Positions 1,853-33,024 of a stretch of DNA of 64,000 nucleotides are shown here, piece by piece. Under the pieces are notes generated by a model. It worked only from the letters and a program-made list of their open reading frames with translations, was not told where the DNA came from and did no database searches. The first letter of the stretch is position 1. The number at the start of each line of letters is the position of its first letter. This stretch comes from Mycolicibacterium sp. TY81 (GTDB lineage: Bacteria > Actinomycetota > Actinomycetes > Mycobacteriales > Mycobacteriaceae), in the NCBI RefSeq assembly GCF_018326285.1, contig NZ_AP023362.1, forward strand, positions 620,001 through 684,000. Direction: 5' to 3'. The position numbers and the translations under genes are program-made.

Positions 1853-2293
1853 ATGTCGGCAAGGCCGCCTGCATCGTCGGAGCTGGTTCGTGCACGCATG
1901 AGCCGGCAGCGGCGTAGCGCCACAAAGCCCGAGCTACTCGTGAGGCGTTTGCTGCACGCCCGCGGAATCCGCTATCGCGTGGATTCCGCCCCAGAACGTG
2001 ATCTTAGATGCAAGGCCGATATCGTTTGGCGCGGTTTGCATCTCGCGGTCTTTATCGATGGTTGTTTCTGGCACGGATGCCCCGACCACGCGACGAGGCC
2101 CAAAGCCAACGAAGAATGGTGGGCTCAGAAACTCGATGGCAACGTGGCACGGGACCGCAGAACGGATGCGGAGTTGGCCGCTCGCGGCTGGACCGTGCTG
2201 CGATTCTGGGAGCACGAGGAGCCGGGCGCTGTCGTCGATGCCATCTGCACAACGCTGGCGCAGTTGCGCGGGTGGGAAGTTGATCGGAGTTAG
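1853..2293 (+). CDS. vsr: Very short patch repair (Vsr) endonuclease
   Basis: The 146-aa protein matches the usual Vsr length. It shows TKPELLVRRLLHARG at residues 25-39, KADIVW near residue 54 (metal-binding Asp) and FIDGCFWHGCP near residue 68, the Phe-Trp-His core of Vsr, followed by the conserved KL..N..RD..... ARGW.VLRFWEHE region. Vsr nicks 5' of the T in T:G mismatches made when 5-methylcytosine deaminates, protecting sites modified by a C5 methyltransferase. The partner gene is its convergent neighbour, with which it overlaps by 4 bases at the stop codons. In enterobacteria vsr follows dcm on the same strand, so the tail-to-tail arrangement is less usual. ATG 1898 is an alternative start, but the family normally has about 15 residues before that point. 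Confidence 0.93.
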   Translation: MSARPPASSELVRARMSRQRRSATKPELLVRRLLHARGIRYRVDSAPERDLRCKADIVWRGLHLAVFIDGCFWHGCPDHATRPKANEEWWAQKLDGNVARDRRTDAELAARGWTVLRFWEHEEPGAVVDAICTTLAQLRGWEVDRS

Positions 2294-3402
2294 TCCTGCG
2301 CAGCTGCCATGCGGTCGTCGAGATCCTTGATTCGACTGCCGAGAGGAACGGCACGTCCCTCGAACCATGATGCACTGACGGTACGGTCGAGCTCCTCGGC
2401 GTCGATCCGCATGTTCAGCGCCTGCGCCAGGACGTGAACCGCGAGGCGTGGAGGAATTGCATTCCCGATCTGTTGACCGACGTCGTTGCCCGACCACGGG
2501 AAGTCAGACGGAAATGTCTGTAGCCGTCCGGCCTCTTGATGTGACAACCGGCTCTCCCCGCCGCCCGCAAGGCGGAGGCGATTGCGCATCACTTTGCCCG
2601 TCACCGTGGCTGCGGGTTCATGGGAGTGTCGTTGCCCGCGATTCTTCGGGTCGCCGCCGCTGCCGTAGTTGGAGACGACGGTGAAGCGGGTGCCTCGCCC
2701 CAGTGCCTGTTCCATCGACACCCACGGCAAACGTCCGAGTACCGCTTGGTCGGGAGCTCCTCGTCTGAATGCCTGATGGGTCGGCGAGGGCAGTGATACC
2801 TCACCGTCGCCAAACCTCGCGATGAGAATGGCCCGACGACGGGTTTGTGGGACGCCAAACTCCTCCGTCCGGAGTACGCCGACGTCGACCCCGTATCCGT
2901 GCTGCTTGAGAATTTCCCTGAAGGCTTGCCATATGGGCAGCACCGCGGGTACCTGCTCCAGCACTATCGCCTCATAGGGCTTGCCGGCCTGCAACGCGAG
3001 CAGGGCCCAGCGCATCGGTTCTAGGACCAGGCCCGTCCGATCGTCGGCGAACCCACCACTCGGTACGCCATCCCCGAGGTTTTCTGCCATGGCCTCGGCT
3101 TGCGCGATCAATTCGTTCAGTGCTTGCCTGCCGGATCCGCTGCCCGCGACCGTGAATGTTTGGCATGGCGGTCCGCCGGTCAGGACGGTGCATTCCGGAA
3201 AGTCAGCGGGTCCGTAGTTTCGTACATCGCCTTGGCGAGTGTCGAGCCCGGCGGCCCTGCGCGTCGCGCAGGCGTTGGGGTCCCATTCGATGCCCGTGGT
3301 CGGGATGCCGAGCCACGTTGCTCCGACGTCGAGCCCGCCGGGACCCGCGAACAGGTCGACGATTTGTGGCAGCGGATCAACGAGAGCATCTTCCCCCGGC
3401 AT
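2290..3402 (-). CDS. DNA (cytosine-5) methyltransferase
   Basis: The 370-aa protein has the ordered C5-methyltransferase motifs: FAGPGGLDVG (motif I, SAM binding, residues 18-27), GGPPCQTF (motif IV with the catalytic Cys, near residue 77), EQVPAV (motif VI, with Gln where ENV is usual, near 148), QTRRRAILIA (motif VIII, near 185) and GNAIPPRLA (motif X, near 312). The target-recognition region lies between motifs VIII and X. It transfers a methyl group from SAM to C5 of cytosine in an unidentified site. It pairs with vsr (overlapping stops) and diverges from the large ATPase-helicase gene. A C5 methyltransferase is also the modification subunit (drmMII) of class 2 DISARM, so it may protect host DNA from the adjoining array; equally it could be a solitary Dcm-type enzyme. 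Confidence 0.93.
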   Translation of the reverse strand: MPGEDALVDPLPQIVDLFAGPGGLDVGATWLGIPTTGIEWDPNACATRRAAGLDTRQGDVRNYGPADFPECTVLTGGPPCQTFTVAGSGSGRQALNELIAQAEAMAENLGDGVPSGGFADDRTGLVLEPMRWALLALQAGKPYEAIVLEQVPAVLPIWQAFREILKQHGYGVDVGVLRTEEFGVPQTRRRAILIARFGDGEVSLPSPTHQAFRRGAPDQAVLGRLPWVSMEQALGRGTRFTVVSNYGSGGDPKNRGQRHSHEPAATVTGKVMRNRLRLAGGGESRLSHQEAGRLQTFPSDFPWSGNDVGQQIGNAIPPRLAVHVLAQALNMRIDAEELDRTVSASWFEGRAVPLGSRIKDLDDRMAAAQD

Positions 3403-3545: not shown

Positions 3546-3605
3546 TTTCAATGACGCGGACGTCAACCCGCAAACAGGCGTTTGTCGGGGGCTAGCAGTG
3601 GGGGT

Positions 3606-6600
3606 ATGACCGTGGCAACGGGGGATTGGATCGGCCCTGATCCTGCTTTGGAAGGGTTGGTCAACCAGTTTCGAGACACGTGTATTCGCGTCTATAAAGA
3701 GGATCCCAACCGCGTCGAGGAAGACGCCGGCAAAGAGCGAGGAATCGCCGAGGGCGGGTATGGCCGGAAGCAGATTCAGGAGCTCGTCCAGAACGCGGCG
3801 GACGCCCTTCAAGGCCTCGCAGGCCGCGTTCAGGTCAGCTTGACGAACGACGCCCTCTACGTCGCGAACGAAGGCAGACCGTTCGAGGAGCTCGGTCTTC
3901 GTGCACTGCTCTACACGCACTTGTCGAACAAGACCGGCACCGAGATCGGTAGGTTTGGGCTCGGTTTCAAGTCGATCAGCGGGATCTCCGACAGTCCGCA
4001 GGTATTCAGCCGATCGGTGTCATTCCGGTTCAGCCGTGAGAAATCGGCGGAACAGCTGTCCGACGAGCTCGGATACCAATACGAATTGAGCGCCGTTCCT
4101 GCGCTACGGCTGGCGTGGCTGCTCAACGCTACTGCCGAGTTCCGCGAGGATGCCATTCTGGGTGAGCTTGCTTCGTGGGCTACGACAGTCGTCAAGGTTC
4201 CACTGAAAGTTGGAGCGGCGAAACAGCTTTCGGATGAGATGGCAGAATTCGATGAGTCGTTCAGCCTGTTCGCCTCCCACGTGCGGATTCTCGACCTCGT
4301 GGACGACGTGGCCGACCGTCAGCGACATTTCAAGGCTGTGAAGAGCGGAAACCGCGTCACCCTCACCACAGAGGACGGTGATCGGGAGTGGTTGGTCGTA
4401 TCGACGGACCACGAGCCGTCACTCAAGGCGTTGGAATCGGCGGGCCACGCAGCTCGGCGTGAATCGGTGACGGTGAGCTGGGCCCTGCCTCTGACGGGTC
4501 GGGTCGAGTTGGGCCAGCTGTCGGCCTTCTTCCCTGTCAAGTCGGATCTGACCTTGAGTGGCCGGGTCAATGCGCCGTGGAAGTTGTCCGACGATCGCAT
4601 CAACGTGATCGAGTGTCCGTTCAACTACGAAATCCTGACCGAGGTCTTGCCGCAGTTGGTTGTAACCGCCCGCAAGGATCTGATCGCGGGTGGTTCCTTC
4701 GCAAGGTACATCGACGTACTCCCCGCGCGCGGCAAAGAATCTCGCAGTTGGGCCGACAAGGTCTTGAACGAGCCAGTGTTCGAAGCCCTCCGAGCTTCTC
4801 GCTGTCTTCCAGACCTCGATGGTCAGCTGCGCGCCCCCAGTGCGCTGCAACGTGTTCCGGACGACGTCGTTGACTTCGCCGACGAGTGGCTCGAGGTAAC
4901 GGGCAATCGGGGTGCCTGGGTACATCCCGAATGCACCAAGGGCAATGAGCGCAGGTCCAAGGTTGAACGTCTGCTCCAGGACGAGGGGCGGGTGACGACT
5001 GCGGGCAGGGTTCTCCATTGGCTGCAATCGGTTGTGGCCGAACCGAATTCAAGGCAGTCGGCAGCTGCGATCAAATTGGCCGTAAAGCTGGTCGCCAAGG
5101 GAGGCAACACGGAGAAGGACGTCCGGGATGCTCGGATTGTCTTATTGGAGAACAAAAGTCTGGCGCAGCCCGTACGCGGGCGCTGCTTTCTGCGGACCGA
5201 TAACCGCCAGAACGGCACATCGTTTGTTGATAGCGCAGTGGCCGGCAGTGAGTCGACCGTAGATGCACTGAAGTACCTGGGCATCACCGCGTTCGAAGAC
5301 GGCGGCGACATGTTGCAGCTGCTCACCGAATTGCGACACACCGGGAAGGTCGACTGGGACGAGCTGTGGATCGCGATGCGTGGTTCGGGCGCGCAGATGG
5401 TGCACGAGGCCTTCGCCAGCGTGCTCGACGGCCATGCGGCGGAATTGGTTCGGGTCCGTGATGGCAACGGGCGGTGGGTTACTCCTCGCGGCCTGTACTA
5501 CCCGGGTGAGTGCTTGAAACAGCTCAAGGAGGACGGCACATTCCTGGTCGACGGTGATTACCACGCAGGTGACCATGAGATCTTGTATCTGCTGGGTGTG
5601 CGCTCCAGGCCGGCGCGATCGGCGGCACATGAAAAGTGGGTGACGCGATACCAAGGGGCGGTTCGGGACAACATCGGCGACCAGCTTGGACTGAGCGTCC
5701 AGGCTCGACAGAACATCGAGATCGAGTCCATCGGTTCAGTTCTCGGACCTCTGGAATGTCTGCCCGAACTCAGCGTCACGAACAAAGTCGGCCTGAGCCT
5801 CGCGGTCATCAGCGAAGTAGACGTTCCACGCGTCCGCGTCAGTCATCAAAGTGTCCCCAAAACAGCCTTGTATGTGGCGCCAGAGCTTTGGTGGGTTCGG
5901 CAGCACGGGATGCTGCAGACGACGCTGGGTGCGACGCCGGTGTCCGAAGCGTTTGTTGCGCACGTGCCCGATGCGCCGGAGGGTCTTCTGCCTTGCGCGA
6001 ACCAGGTTTCGCTCAGTTCTGATGCAGAGCGGGTGTTAGGTCTCAAACGAGCGATGGAAGAGTTGGACCCGGCGGGATTCAATTCGCTTTCACAAATTCA
6101 TGTCAAACGCGACGATGTTTTGCGAGTGGGCCAGACCTACGCCTGGTGGTGCTGGACGCACAAGGATGCCGTCCCACCGGAACGAGTGTGGGTTCGCAGC
6201 GGCGGGCAGTGGATTGAAGTCGATCGCAAGAGTGTCGCTGTCGTCCACACCCCGGAGATGTACGACGAACTCGGCGAGTTCGGTATCTCGTGCATCCTCG
6301 TCGATGGCATCGAGGACGTGCACACGCTGAGCGAAATTTGGGGTTGTCTCGAGGGACGCGACCTTCCCGTCACGTATTCGTACGACACGAGCGCGGAGCC
6401 TGAGCGGCTCCTCGATGTTTTCCCCGTGCTCGACACGCTCCCCGGCGCTGACGAACTCGAAGACATCGTGCTCCAGAAGTGCCCGTCGATCAGCAAGATG
6501 GCCGCAGTGCCTGGCCGGCCCGCGACGCACGTGCCCTGCCAAGCGGGTCGTGAGTCGAACACGGTCTTGGTGACAGGTGCCAGCGATAGGGAAATTCTGA

Positions 6601-8318
6601 AGCAAGCACTCGAATGCCTGCTGTACGACAACTCGGACCGCAAAGTCGATCTCCTGCTCAAAGATATGGAACAACGCCGGAACTCGGCGTATATCCGTGC
6701 AATCCGGAACGCATCGAACGATGCTGAACGGCTTCTGATGTTCGCCGGCGAGGAGCGTCTGCGGACGCTGGTGCCGAAGGATGCACTCACCTATCTGGTC
6801 AACGATCGGTGGGTGGAACCTCATGGGCTCGAACTCGCCAACCTATGCGTAACCATGCTGGGCGTTCGTGCCCTGGAACGCGTATGCAAAGTTGATACGG
6901 CTGGACTTCCAGTTGCGCCTCCGTCGACATGGGCGGGATCATTCAACACGCGTGACTGGGTGAAACGTCTTGGGTTCGGCGAAGAGTGGGCAGGCCAGCG
7001 AGCCAGGCGGCGTAACAAGCCCACGGAATACATCGATGGTCCGACTCAGCTCGATGCGCTCCACGATTATCAGCGGGTGGTTTCGCAGCGCCTCTCCGAC
7101 CTGCTGCGAGGTGTCGGGCCCAAGCGAGGAATCGTTTCACTGCCGACCGGGGCAGGCAAGACACGGGTAGCTGTCCAGACGGTCATCGAGTCGATCCGTG
7201 ATGGCAGTCTCGACGGCTCGGCGCGCGAGACAGTCTTCTCCGGGCCTATCTTGTGGTTGGCCGATGGTGAAGAACTCTGTGAGCAAGCGATCGACGCGTG
7301 GTCATATCTGTGGCGCGCTGTCGGTCGACAGGATACCCAACTGATCCTCAGCCGCTTCTGGTCGAACTACGAGATGGAAGAAGAACCTGCAGGCGTCCAG
7401 GTAGTGGTGGCGACGTGGCAGAAAATTCTTGCTCGTGCGGTCGACAACGATTCTTACGCGTGGTTGGCCGAGGCTCCGATCGTCATCGTCGACGAGGCGC
7501 ACGGTGCGTATACCCCTTCCTACACAAGGATTTTCGAGTGGTTGGGTCGAGGCACTCGACAGCGGGACAAACCTCTCATCGGATTGACGGCCACACCATT
7601 TCGCGGGCGCAGAGAGAGTGCGGAAACGGAGCGCCTGCTGAATCGCTTCGATGACAACAGGTTGGACGAGGGTGTCTTCGGCGATGAACTCCCCCAGGTC
7701 AGATTGCAGCGCGACCGAGTTCTGGCTCGAGCCAGCCTGGAGATTCTCGATGGTGTGTCGGCTGATCTGTCGCAGGACGAGCTCGACTACTTCAGATCGA
7801 ATGGCTGGCTGGCGAAGAGCGCGGAAATCCGCCTCGGCAGGAATGAAGACCGTACCCGGACGATCGTCAATTCGATCATGGGCAAGCCGGCGAACTGGCA
7901 GATCGTGGTTTTCGCTGCGTCGGTCGAAAACGCTCAGACTCTGGCCACCTTGCTCACGATACAAGGCCGCCCGGCGGCGTCCATCGACCAGGACACCAGT
8001 CCTGAAGACCGACGAGTGGCCATCGAACGCTTCAAGTCGGGTGATCTCAAGGTCTTGACGAATTACGCAGTGCTATCGCAAGGCTTTGATGCGCCGAAGA
8101 CTGACGCCGTCTACATTACCCGACCGACGAGCAGCGAGGTTCGCTATCTGCAGATGGTCGGGCGAGGGCTCCGCGGGCCGAAAAACGGTGGTACCGAGGA
8201 AGTTTTGATCGTGAACATGCTCGACAACATCGTCGAGTTCAGGGACAGCATCGAATACGAGAAGGTGAAGGACATCTTCGAATCGGAGCGTGACGAGGAG
8301 TCCGTCGGTGTCAGATGA
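3606..8318 (+). CDS. GHKL-type (sacsin-like) ATPase fused to SF2 DEAD/DEAH helicase
   Basis: The 1,570-aa protein has an N-terminal GHKL/Hsp90-like nucleotide fold: QELVQNAADAL (N-box, about residues 58-68) and GRFGLGFKS (G-box, about 115-123), in the style of sacsin/NOV ATPases. The middle 1,000 residues have no motif I recognise. The C-terminal 400 residues are an SF2 helicase: LPTGAGKTR (Walker A, near 1177), VDEAHG (motif II, near 1295), LTATPFRG (motif III, near 1327) and QMVGRGLRG (motif VI, near 1515). Such combinations occur in prokaryotic defence loci, but this exact fusion does not match a named subunit I can place. It heads the first rightward unit, and its 3' end overlaps the UvrD-like gene. 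A TTG at 3582 in frame is an alternative start. Codon use is less GC-extreme than in the flanking genes, consistent with transfer. Confidence 0.85.
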   Translation: MTVATGDWIGPDPALEGLVNQFRDTCIRVYKEDPNRVEEDAGKERGIAEGGYGRKQIQELVQNAADALQGLAGRVQVSLTNDALYVANEGRPFEELGLRALLYTHLSNKTGTEIGRFGLGFKSISGISDSPQVFSRSVSFRFSREKSAEQLSDELGYQYELSAVPALRLAWLLNATAEFREDAILGELASWATTVVKVPLKVGAAKQLSDEMAEFDESFSLFASHVRILDLVDDVADRQRHFKAVKSGNRVTLTTEDGDREWLVVSTDHEPSLKALESAGHAARRESVTVSWALPLTGRVELGQLSAFFPVKSDLTLSGRVNAPWKLSDDRINVIECPFNYEILTEVLPQLVVTARKDLIAGGSFARYIDVLPARGKESRSWADKVLNEPVFEALRASRCLPDLDGQLRAPSALQRVPDDVVDFADEWLEVTGNRGAWVHPECTKGNERRSKVERLLQDEGRVTTAGRVLHWLQSVVAEPNSRQSAAAIKLAVKLVAKGGNTEKDVRDARIVLLENKSLAQPVRGRCFLRTDNRQNGTSFVDSAVAGSESTVDALKYLGITAFEDGGDMLQLLTELRHTGKVDWDELWIAMRGSGAQMVHEAFASVLDGHAAELVRVRDGNGRWVTPRGLYYPGECLKQLKEDGTFLVDGDYHAGDHEILYLLGVRSRPARSAAHEKWVTRYQGAVRDNIGDQLGLSVQARQNIEIESIGSVLGPLECLPELSVTNKVGLSLAVISEVDVPRVRVSHQSVPKTALYVAPELWWVRQHGMLQTTLGATPVSEAFVAHVPDAPEGLLPCANQVSLSSDAERVLGLKRAMEELDPAGFNSLSQIHVKRDDVLRVGQTYAWWCWTHKDAVPPERVWVRSGGQWIEVDRKSVAVVHTPEMYDELGEFGISCILVDGIEDVHTLSEIWGCLEGRDLPVTYSYDTSAEPERLLDVFPVLDTLPGADELEDIVLQKCPSISKMAAVPGRPATHVPCQAGRESNTVLVTGASDREILKQALECLLYDNSDRKVDLLLKDMEQRRNSAYIRAIRNASNDAERLLMFAGEERLRTLVPKDALTYLVNDRWVEPHGLELANLCVTMLGVRALERVCKVDTAGLPVAPPSTWAGSFNTRDWVKRLGFGEEWAGQRARRRNKPTEYIDGPTQLDALHDYQRVVSQRLSDLLRGVGPKRGIVSLPTGAGKTRVAVQTVIESIRDGSLDGSARETVFSGPILWLADGEELCEQAIDAWSYLWRAVGRQDTQLILSRFWSNYEMEEEPAGVQVVVATWQKILARAVDNDSYAWLAEAPIVIVDEAHGAYTPSYTRIFEWLGRGTRQRDKPLIGLTATPFRGRRESAETERLLNRFDDNRLDEGVFGDELPQVRLQRDRVLARASLEILDGVSADLSQDELDYFRSNGWLAKSAEIRLGRNEDRTRTIVNSIMGKPANWQIVVFAASVENAQTLATLLTIQGRPAASIDQDTSPEDRRVAIERFKSGDLKVLTNYAVLSQGFDAPKTDAVYITRPTSSEVRYLQMVGRGLRGPKNGGTEEVLIVNMLDNIVEFRDSIEYEKVKDIFESERDEESVGVR

Positions 8319-10122
8319 TGGTCGACATAGCATTGAGCTGAACGACGAACAACTTGACGTCGTCGAAGCTGCACCAGACGCGCGGTTACTCGTGATGGCG
8401 GGGGCCGGGCAAGGCAAGACCGAGGTCGTCGTCAGCAGGATCAACAGCTTGGTCCGGGACGAGGGCCTGACGGCCTCCGATGAGATTCTGGTCCTCAGTT
8501 TTTCGCGTGCGGCGGTATCGGCTGTCCGGACCCGGCTGGACTTGAGGGACGCTGCCACGCCAAATGTTCGGACATTCGACTCGTTCGCGAGCGTCTTGCT
8601 GGTCGGAGCCGGCGTTCAACCCGATGGCAGTTTCAACGACCGCATTCGGCGTGCGACGCAGCTGCTGAAAGAGGCCGACGACGCGCCCGTCGAGGTCGAA
8701 CTCCTGCGTCACGTCATCATTGACGAGGTCCAGGATCTGGTCGGAGACCGCGCCGATTTCGTGCTGGCGATTCTGAAGTGGCTCGACGACGACGCGGGTA
8801 TCACCGCCCTCGGTGACCCTCTGCAGGGCGTATATGACTTCCAGCTAGACGAATCCTCCAGCAAGACTTCGGCAGAGGACGTGTTCAAGCAGCTGACCGG
8901 CCCATTCGGATGTGAGACGGTCGCGTTGGGCAAGAACTACCGGGCCAGGGGCAAGTACCCGAAGGAGGTGGTGGTCTTGGGCGACAAGCTCCGTGCCGCC
9001 GCCGATAGCGACGAAGCGGACGACCTGCTGGTGGACCTGGTCTACGAATTGCCCTACCGCGGTGAGATCGAGGAGTGGTACGACCTCGTCACGCCGTCCG
9101 CCGGCAACAAGACGGCTGTGCTGTGCACGACCAATGCGGACGTCCTTCGCGTATCGAGATTCCTCAACGAGAAATCGATTCGGCACGCTGTCCGCAGGCA
9201 AGCACAGGACTTCGGCGCCGCACGGTGGATCGCAGGTGCGCTCGGTCCCTTGCCTGGGCCTAAGGAACGACGGTCTGAGGTCGAAGCTGCGCTCGAAAGG
9301 CTGATCGCCGAACACGACGTGGACCAGAAGTGGAACGAACTCAAGTCCGCCGAAGGACGTACACGTGATTTCGACTCGTTGGATCTTCACAGAATGAACA
9401 GCCTGGTGAAGGCGCGAGCGCTGCCGCTTACTCTCACCGAGCCCGACCACAGTTCGGTCATCGTGTCGACGATCCATCGCGCGAAAGGCCTTGAATTCGA
9501 CTCTGTTTTTGTCGTCGAACCGAATTGGTTGCCGCCCGACGAGGACAGGTGGACGAGAGTGCGTCGTGAGTACGTGGCGTTGAGCCGAGCGCGCGACGAA
9601 ATCTTCACCTGCCGATTGCCTCAATCGAAATCGACGATCAAGGCCGACGACCGGCTGGGCCGGTTCAAGGAGGAGGTCAGGAGTAGGAAGAAGGGCGGTA
9701 AGCCATGGACGCGAGCATTCGAATTCCTCTATGGCGACGTTGAAACCGCATACCCCGCTGTCTCGCAAACCGTTGACGCACAACGCATTCAACAGACGCT
9801 GCAGTCACTCGATCAAGTCGGTGTGAAGGTTTATGCCGAGCTCGACGAGGCCGAGTCCACTGCGGAATCGCCTTCCTACATGCTCGTCACGCAGGACCTG
9901 CAGCCGTTGGGCCGCACAAGCCCTGCGTTCAATTACGCCTTCCAGAAGACGTTCGGATGGTTGAAGAATCGCCCGACAGTCATCGAGGGACTCTCCCTGG
10001 TATCGGTGGAGACTGTTGCCGGTGACTATCGCGAGTCGGAAAAAGCCGGCCTCGGAAGCTCCGGATTCTGGCTGGTGCCGCGGATTACAGGCCTCGCTCG
10101 CCCTGACCTGAACACGACATAG
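8308..10122 (+). CDS. UvrD/Rep-like SF1 helicase
   Basis: The 604-aa protein shows AGAGQGKTE (Walker A, near residue 32), IIDEVQDLV (Walker B, near 138), GDPLQGVYDF (motif III, near 170), a KNYRARG segment (motif IV-like) and STIHRAKGLEFDSVF (motif V, near 387), then REYVALSRARDE (motif VI). It is shorter than full UvrD and resembles the compact SF1 helicases that partner ATPases in phage-defence systems such as Gabija; this comparison is inference. GTG 8308 is preferred because GAGGAG lies 7 bases upstream; GTG 8290 in the same frame is an alternative. It overlaps the ATPase-helicase gene by 11 bases, indicating translational coupling. The last 120 residues after motif VI have no recognised domain. 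Confidence 0.88.
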   Translation: MSDDGRHSIELNDEQLDVVEAAPDARLLVMAGAGQGKTEVVVSRINSLVRDEGLTASDEILVLSFSRAAVSAVRTRLDLRDAATPNVRTFDSFASVLLVGAGVQPDGSFNDRIRRATQLLKEADDAPVEVELLRHVIIDEVQDLVGDRADFVLAILKWLDDDAGITALGDPLQGVYDFQLDESSSKTSAEDVFKQLTGPFGCETVALGKNYRARGKYPKEVVVLGDKLRAAADSDEADDLLVDLVYELPYRGEIEEWYDLVTPSAGNKTAVLCTTNADVLRVSRFLNEKSIRHAVRRQAQDFGAARWIAGALGPLPGPKERRSEVEAALERLIAEHDVDQKWNELKSAEGRTRDFDSLDLHRMNSLVKARALPLTLTEPDHSSVIVSTIHRAKGLEFDSVFVVEPNWLPPDEDRWTRVRREYVALSRARDEIFTCRLPQSKSTIKADDRLGRFKEEVRSRKKGGKPWTRAFEFLYGDVETAYPAVSQTVDAQRIQQTLQSLDQVGVKVYAELDEAESTAESPSYMLVTQDLQPLGRTSPAFNYAFQKTFGWLKNRPTVIEGLSLVSVETVAGDYRESEKAGLGSSGFWLVPRITGLARPDLNTT

Positions 10123-15067: not shown

Positions 15068-15116
15068 GCACACCCCAGGACCGATTCGGCAGTACCCAGG
15101 AAGGCTGCGACGCACA

Positions 15117-15461: not shown

Positions 15462-15543
15462 ACGGGTAAACGCCGTCCGATGGAGTTCGTCGTCGAGCGG
15501 TCTTGCCGACAGCAACCATTCGCGCATGAGCTGCTCGGCATAG

Positions 15544-24430: not shown

Positions 24431-27400
24431 ATGGGCGCACTCCTCCCAACTCTCCAGGCAACGCACCTACGTGAGGGCTTGACCGACTACCTGGCAACGA
24501 CATTCGCGCTGACGGATCCCGACGCGCAGGCAGCGCTCACCGACTTCATCGGTGATCCCGACAACGGCATGTTCAAGGGACCGTACGTACGGTTGCGGTT
24601 GCCGTTCGCCCCGGCCGGCGACGGCTGGCGTGACCACCTGGATTGGTGGCCCAGCGATTTCACGCCGTACGGGCACCAGGCGCGGGCATTCGAGCGCCTC
24701 TCGACACAGCACCAACAGCGGCCGCAACCCACCTTGGTGACCACCGGCACCGGCTCCGGCAAGACCGAGGCATTCCTGTACCCGATCCTCGATCACGTGC
24801 TGCGGGCCAAGAAGTCCGGCGTCACCGGCATGAAGGCGCTGATCCTCTACCCGATGAATGCGCTCGCCAACGACCAGGCCGAGCGACTGGCCAAACTGAT
24901 CTCCGGCGACCCGGGCCTGAGCACGGTCACCGCCGGCCTCTACACCGGCGAGCAGGGCGGTGGCGGGCGCACCCGGGTCGCCGCCGACGGGCTGATCACC
25001 GATCGCGACCTCATGCACGACTCACCGCCCGACATCCTGCTCACCAACTACAAGATGCTCGACCACATGCTGCTGCACCCCGGCCGCGCCGACATCTGGC
25101 GGCTGTCCGCCGAATCGCTGCAATACCTGGTGCTCGACGAATTCCACACCTACGACGGCGCGCAGGGCACTGACGTCGCCATGCTGCTGCGTCGCCTCGG
25201 CCTCACCCTCAAAGCACACTGGACCGGCACGTCGCGGGTCACCGACGACGACCGGACCCGTCCGCTCGGCAAGGTCACCCCGGTCGCCACGTCGGCCACC
25301 CTGGGATCGCGCGCGGCTCCGACGGCCATGCTCGACTTCGCCCACACCGTCTTCGGGGAACCGTTCGGCGATGATGCGGTGATCGACGAGACTCGCCTCA
25401 CTCCGGACGAATGGCGCGGAGCACGGTTGGGCACCCACGACCATGCCTGGCGGCCAATCGAACCCGCCCTACCCGATGCACTCGACCGGATCACCAACGC
25501 AGCAGCCTCCGCCACCGACAACCACGCCATTGCCGCCGCGGTCTTCGCCGAACTCTTCGAGCGGCCCACTGGATCCGAACTCTTCGGAAAGCCCACCCAA
25601 TCCGAGCTATTCGAGACGCCTGGACAATCCGATCTCTTCCAGGAGGCCACGCATGCGGGCGGTCCCGCTGTCGCTTCGACCTTGACCATTGCCGACATGC
25701 TGGATCAGCTCAAACGGCATCGGTTCATCCAGGCCGTGCTGGAGCACGCCGTCGATGCGGTATCCCTGCCGGATCTGGCCGAGCAGGTGTTCCCGGCGAT
25801 GCCTGTCGATCGCGATGCTGCCCGCACCCGCGACATCCAGATCCGGTTCCTGGAGTTCGTCTTTGCGATGCTGTCGCACGTGCGCGCCGAGACCGGACGC
25901 ACGGCGCTCGGGGTCGACGTGCACTTGTGGATCCGGGAACTCAGCCGCGTCGACCGCGCGGTACGGGCCGCCGCCGAGTACCGCTGGTCCGACGACGGTA
26001 CGTCAGTTGACGAGGAGCTGTATCTGCCCGCGGTGTACTGCCGGCACTGCGGACGCTCGGGTTGGGGTGCGCGGTTGGCGCCGACAGGCAGCGCTCTCGA
26101 CGTCACTGACGAGGCCATCCGTGCCGACCACGCTGCTGGTGCCTCCCGGTTCCGTGCGCTGATCTCGGCGCCTGCTGAAGCGCAGGTCGTTGGCGGCGTC
26201 CAAGGTCTGCGGTGGTTCCACCTAGACCAGCGCGAACTCCTCGACACGACACCGGACCCGCAGAGCCCTGCTGTTGTCGACGGACGGGTGCTGCCGGTGC
26301 TCACCCTGGTCGGGCCGGACGCCGACGAGCAATCCAAGAACGACGTCTGCCCGGCCTGCGGTGCCGCCGACGGCATCCGGTTCCTCGGCAGCGCGGTGGC
26401 CACCCAACTGTCGGTGACCTTGTCGAACCTGTTCGGCGACAAGCATCTCGACGCTGCCGAGAAGAAGGCGTTGATGTTCACCGACAGCGTGCAGGACGCT
26501 GCGCACCGTGCCGGGTTCGTGCAGGCACGCTCGCACAGCCTGAGCCTGCGCACCGCGCTGCGCGGAGCGCTGGGTAACGCCGAGCTCGATCTGGACGAGC
26601 TCGCCCGAGCTGTCATCGACCGCGCCGGCAACGATCCGATGCTGCGCTACCAACTGCTGCCCCCGGACATCGTGGATCGCGACGAGTTCGTCGCGTTCTG
26701 GAAGCCCGACGTACACCCGAATTCGCGAAGGGCCGCGGAGAACAAGGCCAAGCGGCGGCTGCGGTTCGACGTCGATCTCGAATTCGGTTTGCAGTCCCGC
26801 ACCGGCCGTACCCTCGAGCTCACCGGCAGCGTCGTTGCCGAGGTGTATCTCGGTGCAGCACGCAAGGCGCCGATCATCGGGCGACGAGCGATCGACAAGG
26901 CCGGCCCGGCTCAGTTCCCTCTGACAGGAGTGTCTGATACAGCGCTGACCCACTGGGTGCGGGGAACCGTCGAACGGATCCGTACCCGTGGCGGCATCCA
27001 CCACGACTGGCTGCGGCCCTACCTGGAGAAGAACGCCAACCGGTACCACGTCTGGGGTGGGCGACCACGGGGCCAGGGTATGCCTGCCTTCCCGAAAGGC
27101 CGTCCCGCTCCGGCATTCCCCGCACTTAGATCCGGAAGTGGTGCTCTGCCAGAGGGCTTCGACTCGGTCACTGCGCCGTCTTCGTGGTATGCGCAGTGGA
27201 CATCGCGGTGCCTCGACGTCAGCCCCCACGACGGCACTTTCCTTGCCAAGGCACTGTTTGTCGAACTTGCCGAGCAGATGGTGTTGTCCACCGTCACTAC
27301 CGAGACCGGTTCCACCGTCTACGGATTGTCGCCGACCACCGTCCAGGTGAGTGCTCCCACGCTGGAAGCGCTACTTGACGAGCGGCACCTGCTGGCCTGC

Positions 27401-30400
27401 GACATCTGCCAAACCCCGATGCCGGGCAGTGCCACCACAATTGACGAACTCGACGGCGCACCTTGCACGTTGATTCGTTGCCCCGGGCGGCTGCACCGAA
27501 GCGCGAAAACTGACAACTTCTACCGCCGGCTGTACGACTCGACCGAGATGAAACGCGTTGTTGCACGGGAACACACCGGGTTGCTGCCGACGAAGACCCG
27601 CCTCGAATACGAGACTGCCTTCAAACGCGGCGGCACCGACCCGCAAGCACCCAACGTGCTCGTCGCGACCCCGACGCTGGAGATGGGCATCGACATCGGT
27701 GACCTCTCCACCGTCATGCTCGGCTCGTTACCCCGATCGGTGTCGTCCTACCTGCAGCGTGTCGGGCGCGCCGGCCGGCTCACCGGAAACTCTTTGGTGC
27801 TGGCCTACGTTCGCGGCCGTGGCGAACATTTGCCCAAGTTGTTCGAGCCGTTGTCTGTGATTCAGGGGGATGTACGTCCGCCGGCAACGTTCCTCAACGC
27901 CGAGGAGATCCTGCAACGCCAGTACATTGCGCACATCGTCGATCAGTTCGCCCGTGACCCGCAGCTGGTGGCGCCCAAGGATGCACGATCGGTGCTCGGA
28001 GATAACGGGGCGGACAGCTGGCTGGCCCGGCTGATGGACACCGCCGCCACCGAAGCCGAAGCGTTGCTGGACCGCTTCCTGGCCCAGTTCGGGGAGCATC
28101 TCAGCCCCGATGCGGTCGACGCCTTGCGATCTTGGGCGAGCACACCACCTCAGGGCGGTCCCAGTGGCCTCACCCAACGCCTGATGGCCGCGGCATACCA
28201 ATGGCAACTCGATCTCAAGGAACTCACCGATCGGCAGGCGACCGTCGAGGCGGATCTACCCGAGTTCGAACGCCGGGCCACCTCCCCGGCCGCCACCGAC
28301 GACGACCGTCGGGCCTTCAAGATCGCCAAGGGATCACGCAAACTGCTTGGTGCCCAGATCATCTCGCTGACTCGCGACTACTGGATCTCGGTGCTCGAAC
28401 GGTACGGAGTGCTGCCCAACTACACACTGCTCGATGACGCGGTGATCCTCGATGTCGGCGTCACCTGGATCGACCCGGACAGCAACGACTACATGGGGGA
28501 GCAGCTCAGCTATCAGCGCGGCTCCCGTGTTGCACTCACCGAACTCGCTCCCGGCGCCACCTTCTACGCCCAAGGCCTCGCTGTCACTATCGACGCGGTC
28601 GACCTAGGCACCGGTGAATCGAACATCCACGCCTGGCAAGTCTGCCCGCAGTGCGGGTGGGTGCGCAGCAGCAGCGCGTCCGCGGGATCTGATCCCGTGT
28701 CGAGCTGCCCGCGCTGTCACAGCACCGGCATCGCCGACGTGAGTCAGCACCTACAAGTCGTCGAGATGACCCGCGTTTCGGCGGAAGTGCGCCGGGACGA
28801 GGCCACCATCAACGACCTGCGCGACAACCGCGCACAGGAACCGTTCACCGTGGTGACCGCCGCCGACGTCGACCCCACCCAGGTGGGGCGCACCTGGTTC
28901 CGTGCGAATTCGTCGTTCGGTGCGGAATACCTGCGGCGCTTGGATATTCGCTGGATCAACCTCGGCGGACGGACATCCAAGGGCAAGACTCGGATGATCG
29001 CCGGGCACGAATCGACCAGCGGCCTGTTCCGGGTCTGCGCGTCCTGTGGGCAACTCGACCGGGAAGCCGGGCGCAACAGTCGATACGAGCACCGCACCTG
29101 GTGTCGCCTACGCGGCTCGGCCGCCGAGGATGTCCGCGACATCGCGCTGGCGCGACGACTACGCACCCAGGGTGTGCTGCTGCACCTGCCGCCGCAGATG
29201 GAGTACGACAACTTCGCCCACCCGAGCCTGGCTGCCGCAATCCTACTGGGATTGCGTGAGATTATCGGCGGATCTCCCGAACATCTCGACGTCGCCACCA
29301 TCAGTGATGCGCTGTGGGCGCCTGATCGACGCGCGCTACTTATCCACGACACGGTCCCGGGCGGTACGGGCTACCTCGCCGAATTTGCCGATCACACCAA
29401 GGTTTTCGCGGTGCTGGCGGCGGCTCGGCAGATCCTGCGGGAATGCCCGTGTCGGGACGAGGACCGGCTGGCCTGCCACCGCTGCTTGTTGCCATTCGCC
29501 GCGCCTTACGAGATGGACAAGGTGTCGCGGCTGACCGCCTTGAATCTGCTCGACGGCATCCTCGAGGTAGGTGCCCACGGCACGCCCGACCTGGATGCCT
29601 GGACCGCCGAGGTGACCGAGCAGGCACCGCCCAGCACGCCGCTCAGCGACGAGTCGTTCCTGGAACGTGACTTTTACTGCTCGTTCATCGAGCGGCTCAA
29701 GTTGATGGGTGCAGCCGTCGTAGAGAAGCCGGGAACCTACGGTCCGTCGGCGACCATCACGCTCCAGGGCAGCAAGGCGCGGAAATGGTCACTGCGACCG
29801 CAGGTTTCGCTGGACTTCGTCAAACCCGACTTTGTGTTGCAGACCGCTGATCCGGACATCCCGCGGATCGCGATCTTCGCCGACGGTCGCGCATTTCACG
29901 CTGGAACCGGCGATCGCAACCGCGTCGCCGACGACGCCGACAAACGTGCCGCATTGCGCACCGCGGGCTATCTGGTGTGGTCCTTCGGCCATGAGGATCT
30001 GCAGCGGTTCAAATCCGGTGACTCGATCGAGCCGGCTTGGTTCGATCACAAGGCCACCAGCTTCGTCACCAGCCGGTTCCATGTTCAACCGGGTTTGATT
30101 CGGCTGCAAGCCAAAGACCCGGTATCGCAACTGCTGGAGTTCATGGTCACTCCCGACATCGACGCCTGGCGGCACTTCAGTACCTGGATGCCGTACTTGT
30201 TCGTGCGCGGTGACAACCGCGCTCATTCGGAAGTGGAATCTGCGGTGGCGGCTGCCATCTCGGCGTTGGACGGCGGCACACCGTTCTCGGCATCGGGGGC
30301 CGACATTTGCTGGGCGTACACCGCCGGCGCCATCACTCTCACCGCTGGCGTGCGCACCACAGCCGACCCGCCACGGGCAGTCCTTGCCGTCGACGACCGA

Positions 30401-30814
30401 GATGAGAAGTTGGACGCCCACCACGGCAAGGCATGGAAGGAATGGCTACGGCTGTCGAATTGGTTGGGAATCAGCGATCCTGGTCGCGTCACGACCCGCA
30501 CTCTGCTCGAGTCGGTTCCGGCGTCAGTACCGGAGCAACCCGATGAGTTCAGATTGACCGCGGAATGGAAACCGTTGTTCGACGAAGCGGTGTCTGATGG
30601 GGAACGCGCCCTGATCTTGACCTTGGCCGCGGCAGGTGCGGCGCCCCCCGAGCTGGGTTATGAGACGACCGACGGCGAAGTGTTGGACATGGCCTGGCCT
30701 GGCGCGCGCGTGGCTGTGGTGTTCGACGAAGGTGAACAGGTGGAGGGGTGGACGCTGTGCTCACCCGATGCCGATGAAATTGTGGAGACGTTGAAAGTGA
30801 ACGGGGTGGTCTAG
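24431..30814 (+). CDS. DruE/YprA(MrfA)-type giant helicase with DUF1998 and nuclease-like C-terminus
   Basis: The 2,127-aa protein has TGTGSGKTEAF (Walker A, near residue 105), NYKMLDHMLLHP (near 206), LDEFHTYDGAQG (motif II, near 236), ATSATLGS (motif III, near 286), ATPTLEMGIDIGDLS (near 1080) and QRVGRAGR (motif VI, near 1109), the YprA/MrfA-family helicase arrangement. Several CxxC pairs follow (CRHCG near 536, CPACG near 640, CPQCG...CPRCH near 1405-1430, CASCG near 1536). The MZB/DUF1998 zinc signature CPC...CHRCLLPF is near 1674-1684. Residues about 1800-1855 (DFVLQ, IAIFADGRAFH, DKRAALRTAGYLVWSF) resemble the Vsr/DUF559 PD-(D/E)XK fold. Length and order fit DruE of Druantia, yet no DruH or other Dru partner is present. 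It is 3 bases from its upstream gene and overlaps the next by one base. Confidence 0.88.
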   Translation: MGALLPTLQATHLREGLTDYLATTFALTDPDAQAALTDFIGDPDNGMFKGPYVRLRLPFAPAGDGWRDHLDWWPSDFTPYGHQARAFERLSTQHQQRPQPTLVTTGTGSGKTEAFLYPILDHVLRAKKSGVTGMKALILYPMNALANDQAERLAKLISGDPGLSTVTAGLYTGEQGGGGRTRVAADGLITDRDLMHDSPPDILLTNYKMLDHMLLHPGRADIWRLSAESLQYLVLDEFHTYDGAQGTDVAMLLRRLGLTLKAHWTGTSRVTDDDRTRPLGKVTPVATSATLGSRAAPTAMLDFAHTVFGEPFGDDAVIDETRLTPDEWRGARLGTHDHAWRPIEPALPDALDRITNAAASATDNHAIAAAVFAELFERPTGSELFGKPTQSELFETPGQSDLFQEATHAGGPAVASTLTIADMLDQLKRHRFIQAVLEHAVDAVSLPDLAEQVFPAMPVDRDAARTRDIQIRFLEFVFAMLSHVRAETGRTALGVDVHLWIRELSRVDRAVRAAAEYRWSDDGTSVDEELYLPAVYCRHCGRSGWGARLAPTGSALDVTDEAIRADHAAGASRFRALISAPAEAQVVGGVQGLRWFHLDQRELLDTTPDPQSPAVVDGRVLPVLTLVGPDADEQSKNDVCPACGAADGIRFLGSAVATQLSVTLSNLFGDKHLDAAEKKALMFTDSVQDAAHRAGFVQARSHSLSLRTALRGALGNAELDLDELARAVIDRAGNDPMLRYQLLPPDIVDRDEFVAFWKPDVHPNSRRAAENKAKRRLRFDVDLEFGLQSRTGRTLELTGSVVAEVYLGAARKAPIIGRRAIDKAGPAQFPLTGVSDTALTHWVRGTVERIRTRGGIHHDWLRPYLEKNANRYHVWGGRPRGQGMPAFPKGRPAPAFPALRSGSGALPEGFDSVTAPSSWYAQWTSRCLDVSPHDGTFLAKALFVELAEQMVLSTVTTETGSTVYGLSPTTVQVSAPTLEALLDERHLLACDICQTPMPGSATTIDELDGAPCTLIRCPGRLHRSAKTDNFYRRLYDSTEMKRVVAREHTGLLPTKTRLEYETAFKRGGTDPQAPNVLVATPTLEMGIDIGDLSTVMLGSLPRSVSSYLQRVGRAGRLTGNSLVLAYVRGRGEHLPKLFEPLSVIQGDVRPPATFLNAEEILQRQYIAHIVDQFARDPQLVAPKDARSVLGDNGADSWLARLMDTAATEAEALLDRFLAQFGEHLSPDAVDALRSWASTPPQGGPSGLTQRLMAAAYQWQLDLKELTDRQATVEADLPEFERRATSPAATDDDRRAFKIAKGSRKLLGAQIISLTRDYWISVLERYGVLPNYTLLDDAVILDVGVTWIDPDSNDYMGEQLSYQRGSRVALTELAPGATFYAQGLAVTIDAVDLGTGESNIHAWQVCPQCGWVRSSSASAGSDPVSSCPRCHSTGIADVSQHLQVVEMTRVSAEVRRDEATINDLRDNRAQEPFTVVTAADVDPTQVGRTWFRANSSFGAEYLRRLDIRWINLGGRTSKGKTRMIAGHESTSGLFRVCASCGQLDREAGRNSRYEHRTWCRLRGSAAEDVRDIALARRLRTQGVLLHLPPQMEYDNFAHPSLAAAILLGLREIIGGSPEHLDVATISDALWAPDRRALLIHDTVPGGTGYLAEFADHTKVFAVLAAARQILRECPCRDEDRLACHRCLLPFAAPYEMDKVSRLTALNLLDGILEVGAHGTPDLDAWTAEVTEQAPPSTPLSDESFLERDFYCSFIERLKLMGAAVVEKPGTYGPSATITLQGSKARKWSLRPQVSLDFVKPDFVLQTADPDIPRIAIFADGRAFHAGTGDRNRVADDADKRAALRTAGYLVWSFGHEDLQRFKSGDSIEPAWFDHKATSFVTSRFHVQPGLIRLQAKDPVSQLLEFMVTPDIDAWRHFSTWMPYLFVRGDNRAHSEVESAVAAAISALDGGTPFSASGADICWAYTAGAITLTAGVRTTADPPRAVLAVDDRDEKLDAHHGKAWKEWLRLSNWLGISDPGRVTTRTLLESVPASVPEQPDEFRLTAEWKPLFDEAVSDGERALILTLAAAGAAPPELGYETTDGEVLDMAWPGARVAVVFDEGEQVEGWTLCSPDADEIVETLKVNGVV

Positions 30815-33024
30815 TGGCGAATCTGGTTATCGCGTCGAACAGCAAGGGCATGTCCAAGCTCGACGGGTCGATCAAGAACAAGGTGTATGACTTCTTCGAG
30901 AAGCTTGCCGCCGACGACACCCAACCTTCCCTGCACATCGAACCGCTTCACGCGGCGATCGATCCCCGGGTCCGGACCGGGCGCGTCGACCTGCACTACC
31001 GCGCAGTGCTGTTCCGGGTTGACGACAAATCCAGCGGGCCGACGTACATCTACATGGGTACCTGGGGCCACGACGACGCGATCAAACTCGCGGAGCGGGC
31101 GACCCTTCGGGTCAACCCCATCAACGGTACTCTCGAGGGGTTGATCGGAGACTCTGCGCCTGCTGAGCCTGTCCAGGCCGCGACTGTCGCGGAACCGGTT
31201 TCGAAGCCTGCGTTGTCTTATCTCGCCGGAGTCGGCTACAAGCTCACCGACTTGACAGAGGGACTGGGCATCAACCCGGTGCTCGCAGCCAAAGTCATGG
31301 AGGCGCCGGATGAATCGGCGCTGTTGGAAGCTGCGGCGGACGGGCTCGAATGGGAAGGGAGCGCACTTCTCGAACTCGCGACCGGCATGGCGATCGAGAC
31401 GATCCGCGAGAACCACGGGTTCGCCAACGAACCCGTGGACACCTCACTGGACGAAGACCAGCAGATCATCGCCGCGCTGGAACGGCCGGCCTCGAAGATG
31501 CAATTCGCCTTCATCGAGGACAACGAAGAACTACGTCGAGTCATCGAAGGCGGCGACTTTGCCGCGTGGCGTACGTTCCTGCACCCCGAACAGCGCAAGT
31601 ACGTTGACACGGATTTCACTGGTGCATTCAGGCTTTCGGGCGGCGCAGGTACGGGTAAGACCGTGGTCGCGATCCATCGGGCGCGTCGGCTGGCCCGCGA
31701 CAATGCGGATGCCAGGATCATTCTGACCACGTACAACACTGCGCTGGCCGAAGGACTCAAAGCCGACCTCAAGGCGCTGGACCCGGGCATCCGGATCGCC
31801 GAGAAGCCCGGAGATCTCGGCGTCTACGTCGGTGGCATCGATGCGCTCGGTAGTGGCGTCCTGCGTCGAGCCGGATCTGCCGTTGTGCCGGCATGCGAGA
31901 GATTGTTCGGTCGTGGCATCGAGTTCGGTTCCAAGAGAACGGGTTCCGACGCCGTGTGGCGGGAAGTTGTGCAGACCGTGGAATCTGGGCTTGATCAGAA
32001 ATTGGCTACGCCGGCATTTCTCGAAAGTGAGTACGTGGCAGTCGTTCTGGCCAACCGGATCACCACGCTCGAGCAATATGCCAAGGTCGCGCGGCCCGGC
32101 CGCGGAGTGCGCCTCAGCCGGCCGCAGCGCATCGCCGTCTGGAAGTTGGTGGATGCCTTTCGCCGTCAGAGCCAGATGGACGAGAGCATCAGCTTCCCGG
32201 AAGTCCTTGCTCTGGCAGCCGAGTCGCTGCGCGTCCGTGCGGAGCGTGACGGCACGTATCTTGCCGATCACGTCATCGTCGACGAGGCGCAGGACCTGCA
32301 CGCCACACACTGGGCATTGCTGCGGTCATTGGTGGCCGAAGGACCGAACGACCTGTTCATCGCCGAGGATTCACACCAGCGGATTTACGGAAGCCCAGTT
32401 GTCTTGAGTCGGTTCGGGATCAAGATCGTCGGCCGGTCCCGCCGCCTGACGTTGAACTACCGGACTACTGCGCAGAACCTCCACTTCGCGGTGAGTGTTC
32501 TATCCGGTGCCGAATATCGAGATCTCGAACAGGGCGAGGAGTCGACCAGCGACTACCGATCGGCGCGGAACGGCCCTGCGCCGGAGTTGATTTCGTGTCC
32601 TGACCTGGCTGGCGAGCTAGAGGCGGTGGCGACGAAGGTAAAGACTTGGCTGGCTGAGGATGGTGTGGAGCCCGAGAGCATCGCCGTGCTCACCCGCAGC
32701 CAGGACGAACGTGACCGCTTCGTTCGCGGGCTCGGAGAGCGTGGTGTCGCAGCCCGCGCCGTCGATAAGAACGCTCCGACACCCGGCCAACCATTGGTTA
32801 TGACGATGCACCGGGCAAAGGGGATGGAATTCTCCAGGGTTGTCCTCGCCGGCGCCGACGAGAAGCACGTGCCGTCACCGGCGACCCTACGCAACGTGCC
32901 CGATGAAGAACGCGCGGAAGCGTTGCTGCGGGAGCGTTCACTGCTCTATGTCGCGAGCAGTCGTGCGCGAGATGCGCTGGTGGTGACTTGGAGTGGGAGG
33001 AGATCGGAATTGTTGGGGGCATAG
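30814..33024 (+). CDS. RelE/ParE-like domain fused to UvrD-type SF1 helicase
   Basis: The 736-aa protein starts at GTG 30814, sharing one base with the preceding TAG. Residues 1-105 resemble a RelE/ParE toxin fold (KVYDFFEKL, LHIEPLHAA.DPRVRTGRVDLHYRAVLF). The rest is an SF1 helicase: SGGAGTGKTVVAIHRA (Walker A, near 275), VDEAQDLH (near 489), AEDSHQRIYG (near 514), HRAKGMEFSRVVLAG (near 667) and LYVASSRARDAL (near 710). RelE-UvrD fusions are recurrent in bacteria and usually lie in accessory regions. The N-terminal domain could bind RNA or ribosomes, or be a non-toxic relic; this is inference. It is the last gene of the second unit; a 148-base gap follows before the oppositely oriented interrupted gene. 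Confidence 0.87.
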   Translation: MANLVIASNSKGMSKLDGSIKNKVYDFFEKLAADDTQPSLHIEPLHAAIDPRVRTGRVDLHYRAVLFRVDDKSSGPTYIYMGTWGHDDAIKLAERATLRVNPINGTLEGLIGDSAPAEPVQAATVAEPVSKPALSYLAGVGYKLTDLTEGLGINPVLAAKVMEAPDESALLEAAADGLEWEGSALLELATGMAIETIRENHGFANEPVDTSLDEDQQIIAALERPASKMQFAFIEDNEELRRVIEGGDFAAWRTFLHPEQRKYVDTDFTGAFRLSGGAGTGKTVVAIHRARRLARDNADARIILTTYNTALAEGLKADLKALDPGIRIAEKPGDLGVYVGGIDALGSGVLRRAGSAVVPACERLFGRGIEFGSKRTGSDAVWREVVQTVESGLDQKLATPAFLESEYVAVVLANRITTLEQYAKVARPGRGVRLSRPQRIAVWKLVDAFRRQSQMDESISFPEVLALAAESLRVRAERDGTYLADHVIVDEAQDLHATHWALLRSLVAEGPNDLFIAEDSHQRIYGSPVVLSRFGIKIVGRSRRLTLNYRTTAQNLHFAVSVLSGAEYRDLEQGEESTSDYRSARNGPAPELISCPDLAGELEAVATKVKTWLAEDGVEPESIAVLTRSQDERDRFVRGLGERGVAARAVDKNAPTPGQPLVMTMHRAKGMEFSRVVLAGADEKHVPSPATLRNVPDEERAEALLRERSLLYVASSRARDALVVTWSGRRSELLGA

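Follow-up and report, generated by a model that had tools for sequence, protein, structure and literature searches.

Does the gene array at positions 1853 to 33024 of a 64,000-nucleotide stretch of the Mycolicibacterium sp. TY81 genome (the window; G000:C1:620001-684000 of a 6.47-Mb genome) encode one defence system or more than one? A preliminary description of this DNA had read the 31-kb array as a DISARM core combined with a Druantia-like giant helicase, and as either a single superarray or two adjoining systems that had been selected to move together. We consider it highly probable that the array consists of two defence systems placed head to tail and recurrently linked, namely a DISARM-like quartet of genes (unit 1), with a C5 cytosine methyltransferase and a vsr-type endonuclease as possible helpers, followed by a type II ARMADA system (unit 2), which would act through the steps proposed below. 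Every gene that had been listed was found as a long open frame in its place (table of open reading frames), and profile searches upheld most of the labels (DrmA, DrmB, Vsr, C5 methylase, GHKL, ResIII/Helicase_C, UvrD and MZB), as well as the general picture of a two-module composite centred on YprA-family helicases, lacking drmC and with a previously unlisted GHKL module. The near-continuous overlap of the genes is also real, with one break. The genes form two tight blocks, 3582-15067 and 15774-33024, with overlapping stops and starts or spacings of a few bases inside each, and the interval of 312 bp between a small gene and position 15774 is the unit boundary. Relatives were sought in 397 Mycobacteriales genomes (G numbers), and further DrmA loci were taken from named genomes (L numbers).

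The downstream block as an ARMADA type II system

The accessible text of a 2025 preprint (PMC12458937) describes ARMADA type II as a BrxHII-like ArmA, a PglX-like ArmB, a YprA-like ArmC and a RelE-like/GajB-like ArmD in strict order. All four genes are present in this order in the downstream block, which is, as judged by homology, a complete ARMADA type II locus and a new member of the published system. We used the four-gene set on the E. coli plasmid NZ_CP139341 for the purpose of comparison. Homology was full-length, with identities of 35% for ArmA (895 columns), 35% for ArmB (1376 columns), 29% for ArmC (2245 columns) and 32% for ArmD (734 columns, with the N-terminus covered). Eight catalytic residues are reported as mutated in the E. 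coli study (PMC12458937, accessible text), and their counterparts were located through the NZ_CP139341 homologues, which have all eight at the numbering used there. All eight are kept in the window (ArmA K136 and D236, ArmB G605 and N971 (NPPW), ArmC K110 and D234, ArmD K266 and D454). The same gene order was observed in 16 of 20 other ARMADA loci; two of the other four are truncated by contig ends, one has no ArmA or ArmB in the 20 kb upstream, and one has ArmB reversed.

These genes had earlier been labelled drmD, drmMI, DruE-like and RelE-UvrD and shared out between DISARM and Druantia; they make up one known system instead. The best PADLOC model for ArmA was DrmD (1.3e-90), but the protein reached 336 bits against an NCBIfam DrmD cut-off of 610, and for ArmB a type IIG model (1362 bits) was by far a better match than the PADLOC DrmMI model (1.9e-51), with no NCBIfam DISARM match. 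We rejected a drmD/drmMI identity for 15774-23729 on these scores and on the long homology to the E. coli ARMADA locus. The drmD and drmMI that would define class 1 DISARM are therefore represented only by homologues below cut-off, both of them in unit 2. Similarly, ArmC matched the PADLOC DruE3 model at 9e-83, a resemblance which ARMADA predicts, whereas a DruE found in another genome of the genus (G341) scored 4e-190. Given this difference and the full-length homology to E. coli ArmC, a Druantia identity was discarded, and ArmC is taken as a distant relative of DruE, probably outside the Druantia clade. No DruE scoring as in G341 was present in the array, nor were Dru partners beyond the DruM and DruE models among the PADLOC matches listed.

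Homology, together with the accessible text of PMC12458937, hints at a RelE-like domain in ArmD and a Vsr-like end in ArmC. The ArmC C-terminus has a PDF...FADG.AFH...KR stretch in common with E. coli ArmC, as seen by eye, with no Pfam Vsr match. When the N-terminus of ArmD was compared with solved structures, the best match was YoeB (E 0.067), followed by RelE3 (E 0.27). The UvrD half of the earlier RelE-UvrD label stands, and its RelE half is weakly supported.

The window differs from the E. coli loci in two respects. The quartet lies upstream, where the loci in the accessible text of PMC12458937 have Druantia III or Zorya II, and a gene of 233 residues is embedded between ArmB and ArmC. The latter had been called helix-hairpin-helix-like (HhH-like), a label for which no profile in PADLOC, Pfam or NCBIfam gave a match. 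Of 148 genomes in the genus, 4 have it, this one included, and it has 395 homologues in all; with no homologue in G178a, G262 or G328, it was rejected as a core part of ARMADA. A GmrSD-type restriction gene occupies the same slot in G341, and so the position between ArmB and ArmC looks like a cargo site.

The upstream quartet and its relatives

Unit 1 is, by its gene content, a separate unit that comprises a GHKL ATPase fused to a superfamily 2 (SF2) helicase (GHKL-SF2), a GajB-like UvrD helicase, DrmA and DrmB. The DISARM genes drmA and drmB are both present. DrmA scored 1016 bits against NF038325 (cut-off 950) and matched the solved DrmA chain 7s9v_A at 3.8e-167, and DrmB scored 438 bits against NF038324 (DrmB_fam; cut-off 240) and matched 7s9v_B at 1.5e-73; the DrmB coordinates are those of the longest frame, and the real start is perhaps further in. 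GHKL-SF2 matched the NCBIfam sacsin ATP-binding domain NF047352 (72.3 bits, cut-off 50) as well as Pfam ResIII and Helicase_C, and profile comparison with solved structures related its GHKL part to sacsin chains (1.6e-7) and weakly to Hsp90. A search of its N-terminus against phage records gave no match. The PADLOC TmtA model (1538 positions), which we take to be that of Tiamat, matched over positions 10-424 (9e-49). This likeness stops after the GHKL part, while unit 1 adds the SF2 helicase C-terminus and the company of UvrD and DrmAB. The UvrD protein matched GajB models and solved chains of PcrA and GajB; ArmD likewise matches GajB models and chains, and no GajA of the Gabija system was among the matches listed for the array. 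Residues in what we take to be the GHKL (ELxQNxxD, IGRFGxGxKS) and SF2 (GKT, DEAH, QMxGRG) motifs were at least 95% conserved in 38 sequences, as were those of the presumed UvrD motifs (GxGKT, DExQD) in 33 sequences, an alignment that includes L079 and L108 though they lie outside quartet loci.

Class 1 DISARM consists of drmD, drmMI, drmA, drmB and drmC, while class 2 uses a C5 methyltransferase (drmMII) and drmE. Unit 1 has DrmA, DrmB and a nearby C5 methylase in common with DISARM, but the quartet has no DrmC, DrmD or PglX-type methylase and adds GHKL-SF2 and the GajB-like UvrD. The earlier statement that drmC and drmE are missing was confirmed for drmC. A tblastn search with seven DrmC proteins over 112 loci found none in the window or in any quartet locus; open reading frames placed DrmC at 7 of the 80 named loci, all outside the 38 that carry the quartet, and tblastn added G287 alone. 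For drmE, none was seen among the PADLOC matches listed for the array proteins (the best 25 for six of the twelve), nor among those listed for the UvrD proteins of unit 1 and its neighbours, which were considered as DrmE candidates. Since DrmC is dispensable and often missing (PMC9142583, accessible part), its absence alone does not exclude DISARM.

We searched the 397 genomes with the first 1000 residues of GHKL-SF2 (E <= 1e-40), and detected it at 22 places in 21 genomes. At 20 of these, UvrD or a NERD-UvrD, DrmA and DrmB come next on the same strand. In the two exceptions, GHKL-SF2 is either split by a contig end, with the other piece followed by a 563-residue gene and then DrmA (G221), or lies behind the ArmD of an ARMADA in the same island, 29 kb from DrmA (G067). 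DrmA relatives were present in 76 of the 397 genomes (E <= 1e-20), and the nearest named relatives of the window DrmA are Mycobacteriaceae, chiefly Mycolicibacterium. In named genomes, the best 80 of at least 593 DrmA relatives were scanned, a DrmA-anchored sample that gives no estimate of frequency; 38 of them had the ordered set of GHKL-SF2, UvrD, DrmA and DrmB, of which 37 are from Actinomycetota and the last is from a Dehalococcoidia assembly. Over all loci examined, GHKL-SF2 and a UvrD-type gene stand in order ahead of DrmAB in 56 of 57, the remaining locus being G221. Two variants could be distinguished: variant A, the window type, has the GajB-like UvrD, and variant B has NERD-UvrD and a more distant DrmA (NERD was seen by Pfam in G225, with homologues of that protein in nine further loci). 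In a tree of 102 DrmA sequences, built by a quick method and with L077, L078, L079 and L139 dropped as coming from the same genomes as G262, G317, G067 and G319, the 46 variant-A quartet proteins and that of G067 formed one branch (Shimodaira-Hasegawa approximate likelihood-ratio support 99), and variant B (G225, G221) was placed elsewhere.

The quartet is thus a conserved unit and, as its proteins indicate, a new DISARM-like variant with a predicted anti-phage role. No description of it was found in the literature searched, a search whose reach stopped short of subscription papers, most preprints and supplements. A pairing of DrmA, DrmB or DISARM with a histidine-kinase-like ATPase was also not found there, sacsin was met together with a helicase, a defence system and phage in one paper, of 2013, and DrmA, DrmB and UvrD were met together in the ARMADA preprint only, the accessible text of which (PMC12458937) does not mention GHKL, HATPase, Tiamat or HhH. 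In a Bacillota DrmAB locus (L108:4814-16678), the gene order is a 448-residue gene, an HSP70-like gene, UvrD, DrmA, DrmB and a 586-residue gene weakly like UvrD, with the HSP70-like gene in the place of the Hsp90-like GHKL of the quartet.

The C5 methylase, which had been counted into the array, is present but divergent and outside the plus-strand run. Its PADLOC match to DrmMII (1.4e-19) compares with 5e-91 for MTase_II. Of the 46 variant-A loci, 18 have a C5 methylase and 13 a vsr no more than 3.5 kb from the quartet, and for the 11 variant-B loci the numbers are 8 and 6; several of these loci are shortened by contig ends or flank, and L077 and L078 were left out. The methylase is possibly the self-marking enzyme of unit 1. 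At 21 of the 29 Streptomyces-type quartet loci, a reverse-strand frame of 680-840 residues is directly upstream (for example L094:890-2992); an N-terminal HTH_3 domain was seen in 4 of 5 such genes scanned, and 2 of 3 scanned were weakly like the PADLOC candidate PDC-M33A.

Table 1. Genes and intervals of the array, with positions in the window
Feature	Positions	Strand	Evidence or remark
vsr-type endonuclease	1853..2293	+	flanks unit 1; Pfam Vsr 61.5 bits
C5 cytosine methyltransferase	2290..3402	-	divergent from unit 1; Pfam DNA_methylase 106.6 bits
GHKL (sacsin/Hsp90-like) ATPase fused to SF2 DEAH helicase, unit 1	3582..8318	+	NF047352, ResIII, Helicase_C
GajB-like UvrD helicase, unit 1	8290..10122	+	UvrD-helicase 74.3 bits; GajB models
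DrmA, unit 1	10137..13337	+	PADLOC 1.6e-245; NF038325; 7s9v_A
DrmB (DUF1998/MZB), unit 1	13256..15067	+	PADLOC 3.1e-60; NF038324; 7s9v_B
Small gene at the joint	15042..15461	+	no Pfam, PADLOC or NCBIfam match
Gap between the units	15462..15773	.	312 bp; table of open reading frames
ArmA (BrxHII/SNF2-like helicase), unit 2	15774..19127	+	homology to E. coli plasmid ARMADA locus
ArmB (PglX-like methyltransferase), unit 2	19131..23729	+	homology to E. coli plasmid ARMADA locus
Embedded accessory gene, 233 residues, ArmB-ArmC slot	23726..24427	+	no profile match
ArmC (giant YprA-family helicase), unit 2	24431..30814	+	homology to E. coli ArmC; MZB match
ArmD (RelE-like domain fused to GajB-like UvrD helicase), unit 2	30814..33024	+	homology including the N-terminus

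To the right of the array, 33173-38562 holds a Hypoth_Ymh gene, two Mutator-family transposase genes (33900-34883 and 37243-38562) and a GHKL (HATPase_c_3) gene. Homologues of the small gene at the joint were found, among the labelled loci, in G230 and L073-L075 only, and in L075 a gene for a 1270-residue RecD-like superfamily 1 (SF1) helicase (L075:15438-19250) is inserted between it and ArmA.

Linkage of the two units

An ARMADA-type YprA was present in 44 of the 397 genomes, and 25 of the 44 were examined. The quartet is linked upstream of ARMADA in four (closely in G000, G178 and G262, and across about 3 kb in G328), and in a fifth (G067) both are in the same island without that linkage. 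The other 20 were chosen for having no quartet DrmA adjoining. In five of these (G386, G015, G279, G193 and G076) a different DrmAB with a sigma-70-like gene, and then an antisense vsr, precede ArmA; one (G341) has a Druantia-type DruE upstream; ten have no partner recognised by the few queries used, one of them (G352) with a weak DruE-like match; and four (G392, G254, G309 and G360) were not assigned. GHKL-SF2 was not found upstream of ARMADA II on the E. coli plasmid or in these 20 Mycobacteriales loci, three of which have less than 3 kb upstream. Viewed from the quartet, ARMADA is linked downstream at 4 of the 22 GHKL-SF2 places and in the same island at one more, and the quartets of G020, G309 and G076 have no adjoining ARMADA gene. 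Of the 38 named quartet loci, 6 have ArmA within reach downstream, 2 (L078, L085) have an ArmD-like gene alone directly behind DrmB, L088 has one about 4 kb off, and 29 have no ARMADA-type gene downstream (flank about 8 kb, shorter in three). Each unit therefore occurs without the other in most of the loci examined. The preliminary description had held that independent occurrence of the two units in most genomes would count against its reading; with linkage at 4 of 22 GHKL-SF2 places and in 4 of 44 ARMADA genomes, the idea of one superarray fails by that measure.

The nine linked loci point to repeated joining. In an ArmA tree of 28 rows they fell into three supported places, each beside ARMADAs free of the quartet: the window, L073-L075 and G178a with G341; G262 and L076 with a Tsukamurella plasmid; and G328 and L082 with G360. 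Constraining the nine to one clade was rejected (approximately unbiased test, p-AU 1.2e-43), and an ArmB tree of 26 rows forced at least three changes, indicating that the units were joined, or rejoined, on at least three occasions. The Tsukamurella plasmid carries a C5 methylase, UvrD, DrmA, DrmB and ARMADA, with no GHKL-SF2 match. In agreement with the trees, identity between G262 and the window was 82% for GHKL-SF2 and 62% for DrmA, but 45% for ArmA and 36% for ArmC. The link can also be undone, as suggested by a deletion scar in G230, which has lost ArmA, ArmB and almost the whole of ArmC but keeps ArmD (89%) and the final ArmC codons. Across genomes, an ARMADA-type YprA accompanied the quartet-type DrmA in 7 of 10 (G067 counted) compared to 44 of 397 overall (p 1.2e-5), and GHKL-SF2 in 8 of 21 (p 8e-4).

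Other partners were seen with ARMADA II genes. The sigma-linked DrmAB lineage (L162:4040-11889 in G193; also G015, G386, G279 and G076) is about 30% identical to the window DrmA, has a divergent C5 methylase directly upstream in 4 of 5 loci and, in G279, has a single frame that joins the sigma-like part to an SF1 helicase and an MTES_1575 nuclease domain. In G341, of the same genus, DruE and a 1107-residue gene are directly upstream of ARMADA II (L156:1741-19987); this DruE matched DruE1 at 4e-190 and DruE3 at 7.6e-178, so that its type is unsettled. In L078, L085, L112 and G287 an ArmD-like RelE-UvrD gene stands behind DrmB without ARMADA, as if it were a shared effector.

Several observations weigh against the reading of two recurrently linked and cooperating systems. 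The 312-bp gap splits the units in the window and bears on co-transcription; no sigma-70-like site was found in it by a low-powered scan, with 0.1 expected in shuffles. In the lineage of G328 and L082, a C5 methylase and vsr on the reverse strand, about 3 kb, separate the units. The second quartet of G178 is convergent with the ARMADA 9 kb away, and GHKL-SF2 of G067 lies behind ARMADA. Both co-occurrence p values ignore kinship. No nuclease was found for the quartet, as profile comparison of the middle of GHKL-SF2 and the C-terminus of UvrD with solved structures matched GHKL and helicase parts only. A C5 methylase adjoins 26 of 57 quartet loci, and 4 of 29 in the Streptomyces-type branch, so that methylation as a self-mark is not general. 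Finally, our tests gave little support for a RelE-like domain in ArmD or a Vsr-like end in ArmC.

These neighbours could be a chance pile-up of functionally unrelated systems in a defence island, a view that we hold to be unlikely. Islands do gather systems, the array has transposase genes close by on its right, 10 of the 25 ARMADA loci have no recognised partner, and the arrangements in G178 and G067 depart from the usual one. Yet the quartet is upstream and co-directional in all nine linked loci, across three ArmA lineages, and ARMADA elsewhere follows the sigma-linked DrmAB (five loci) or a Druantia-type DruE (one). The same constancy of side and direction gives partial support to the earlier suggestion of adjoining systems selected to move together, from which G067 and the convergent G178 quartet detract.

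It is more doubtful still that unit 1 represents a class 2 DISARM in decay, with drmC and perhaps also drmE already lost. The DrmA and DrmB scores, the adjoining C5 methylase and the dispensability of DrmC (PMC9142583, accessible part) would suit such a relic, whereas the retention of GHKL-SF2 and a UvrD-type gene ahead of DrmAB in 56 of 57 loci, the conserved ATPase motif residues in both proteins and the consistent lack of DrmC in the 38 named quartet loci would not. An integrated hybrid, in which one BrxHII/PglX pair serves both DrmAB and ArmC and all 31 kb work together, has very little to recommend it, for although the plus-strand genes are near-continuous, DrmB and ArmA are 25 bp apart in G262 and the units co-occur more often than expected, most quartets examined have no BrxH or PglX nearby, ARMADA with its own BrxH/PglX exists without the quartet, and one DrmA subclade is linked to three ARMADA lineages.

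A proposed mechanism and its implications

Two head-to-tail systems, a DISARM-like quartet and ARMADA II, remain the preferred reading, and we propose the following course of events. Where present, the C5 methylase would mark host DNA. DrmAB may then catch DNA with 5' overhangs in a methylation-sensitive manner, by analogy with the Serratia complex, the one DrmAB for which this was demonstrated; that complex binds DNA with a 5' overhang, and unmethylated DNA stimulates its ATPase more than DNA with 5-methylcytosine does (PMC9142583, accessible part). The UvrD and GHKL-SF2 motors would unwind and hold the invading DNA caught by DrmAB, with GHKL-SF2 perhaps serving as an ATP-gated clamp or remodeller. 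Cutting would fall to the nuclease of another protein, and ArmC with its Vsr-like end may be that protein in the composite; variant B may have its own in the nuclease-like NERD domain on UvrD, while variant A would have to recruit one. In E. coli, ARMADA II stops phage while the cell survives, depends on all four genes and synergises with Druantia III against some phages (PMC12458937, accessible text). The window ARMADA may likewise block phage non-abortively and, placed behind unit 1, could form a second layer that gives wider or deeper protection, as ARMADA does with Druantia III.

A bolder proposal, which we regard as evenly balanced, is that GHKL-SF2, UvrD (or NERD-UvrD), DrmA and DrmB constitute a third DISARM-like class, widespread in Actinomycetota, with an Hsp90-like ATPase-helicase and a GajB-like helicase taking the places of DrmC, DrmD and DrmE. 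ARMADA II would then be a plug-in second stage, repeatedly attached behind DrmAB and Druantia systems because the stages cooperate.

The means by which DISARM destroys DNA has been named as an unsolved question (PMC9142583, accessible part). The quartet represents a large natural group of DrmAB systems that keeps two other motor proteins, and these are candidates for the missing partners of DISARM. The repeated linkage of ARMADA II behind DrmAB- and Druantia-type modules amounts to a natural experiment on the combining of whole immune systems, and the published synergy between ARMADA and Druantia makes the predicted cooperation between the quartet and ARMADA directly testable. The mycobacterial locus illustrates how bacteria join entire defence modules end to end.

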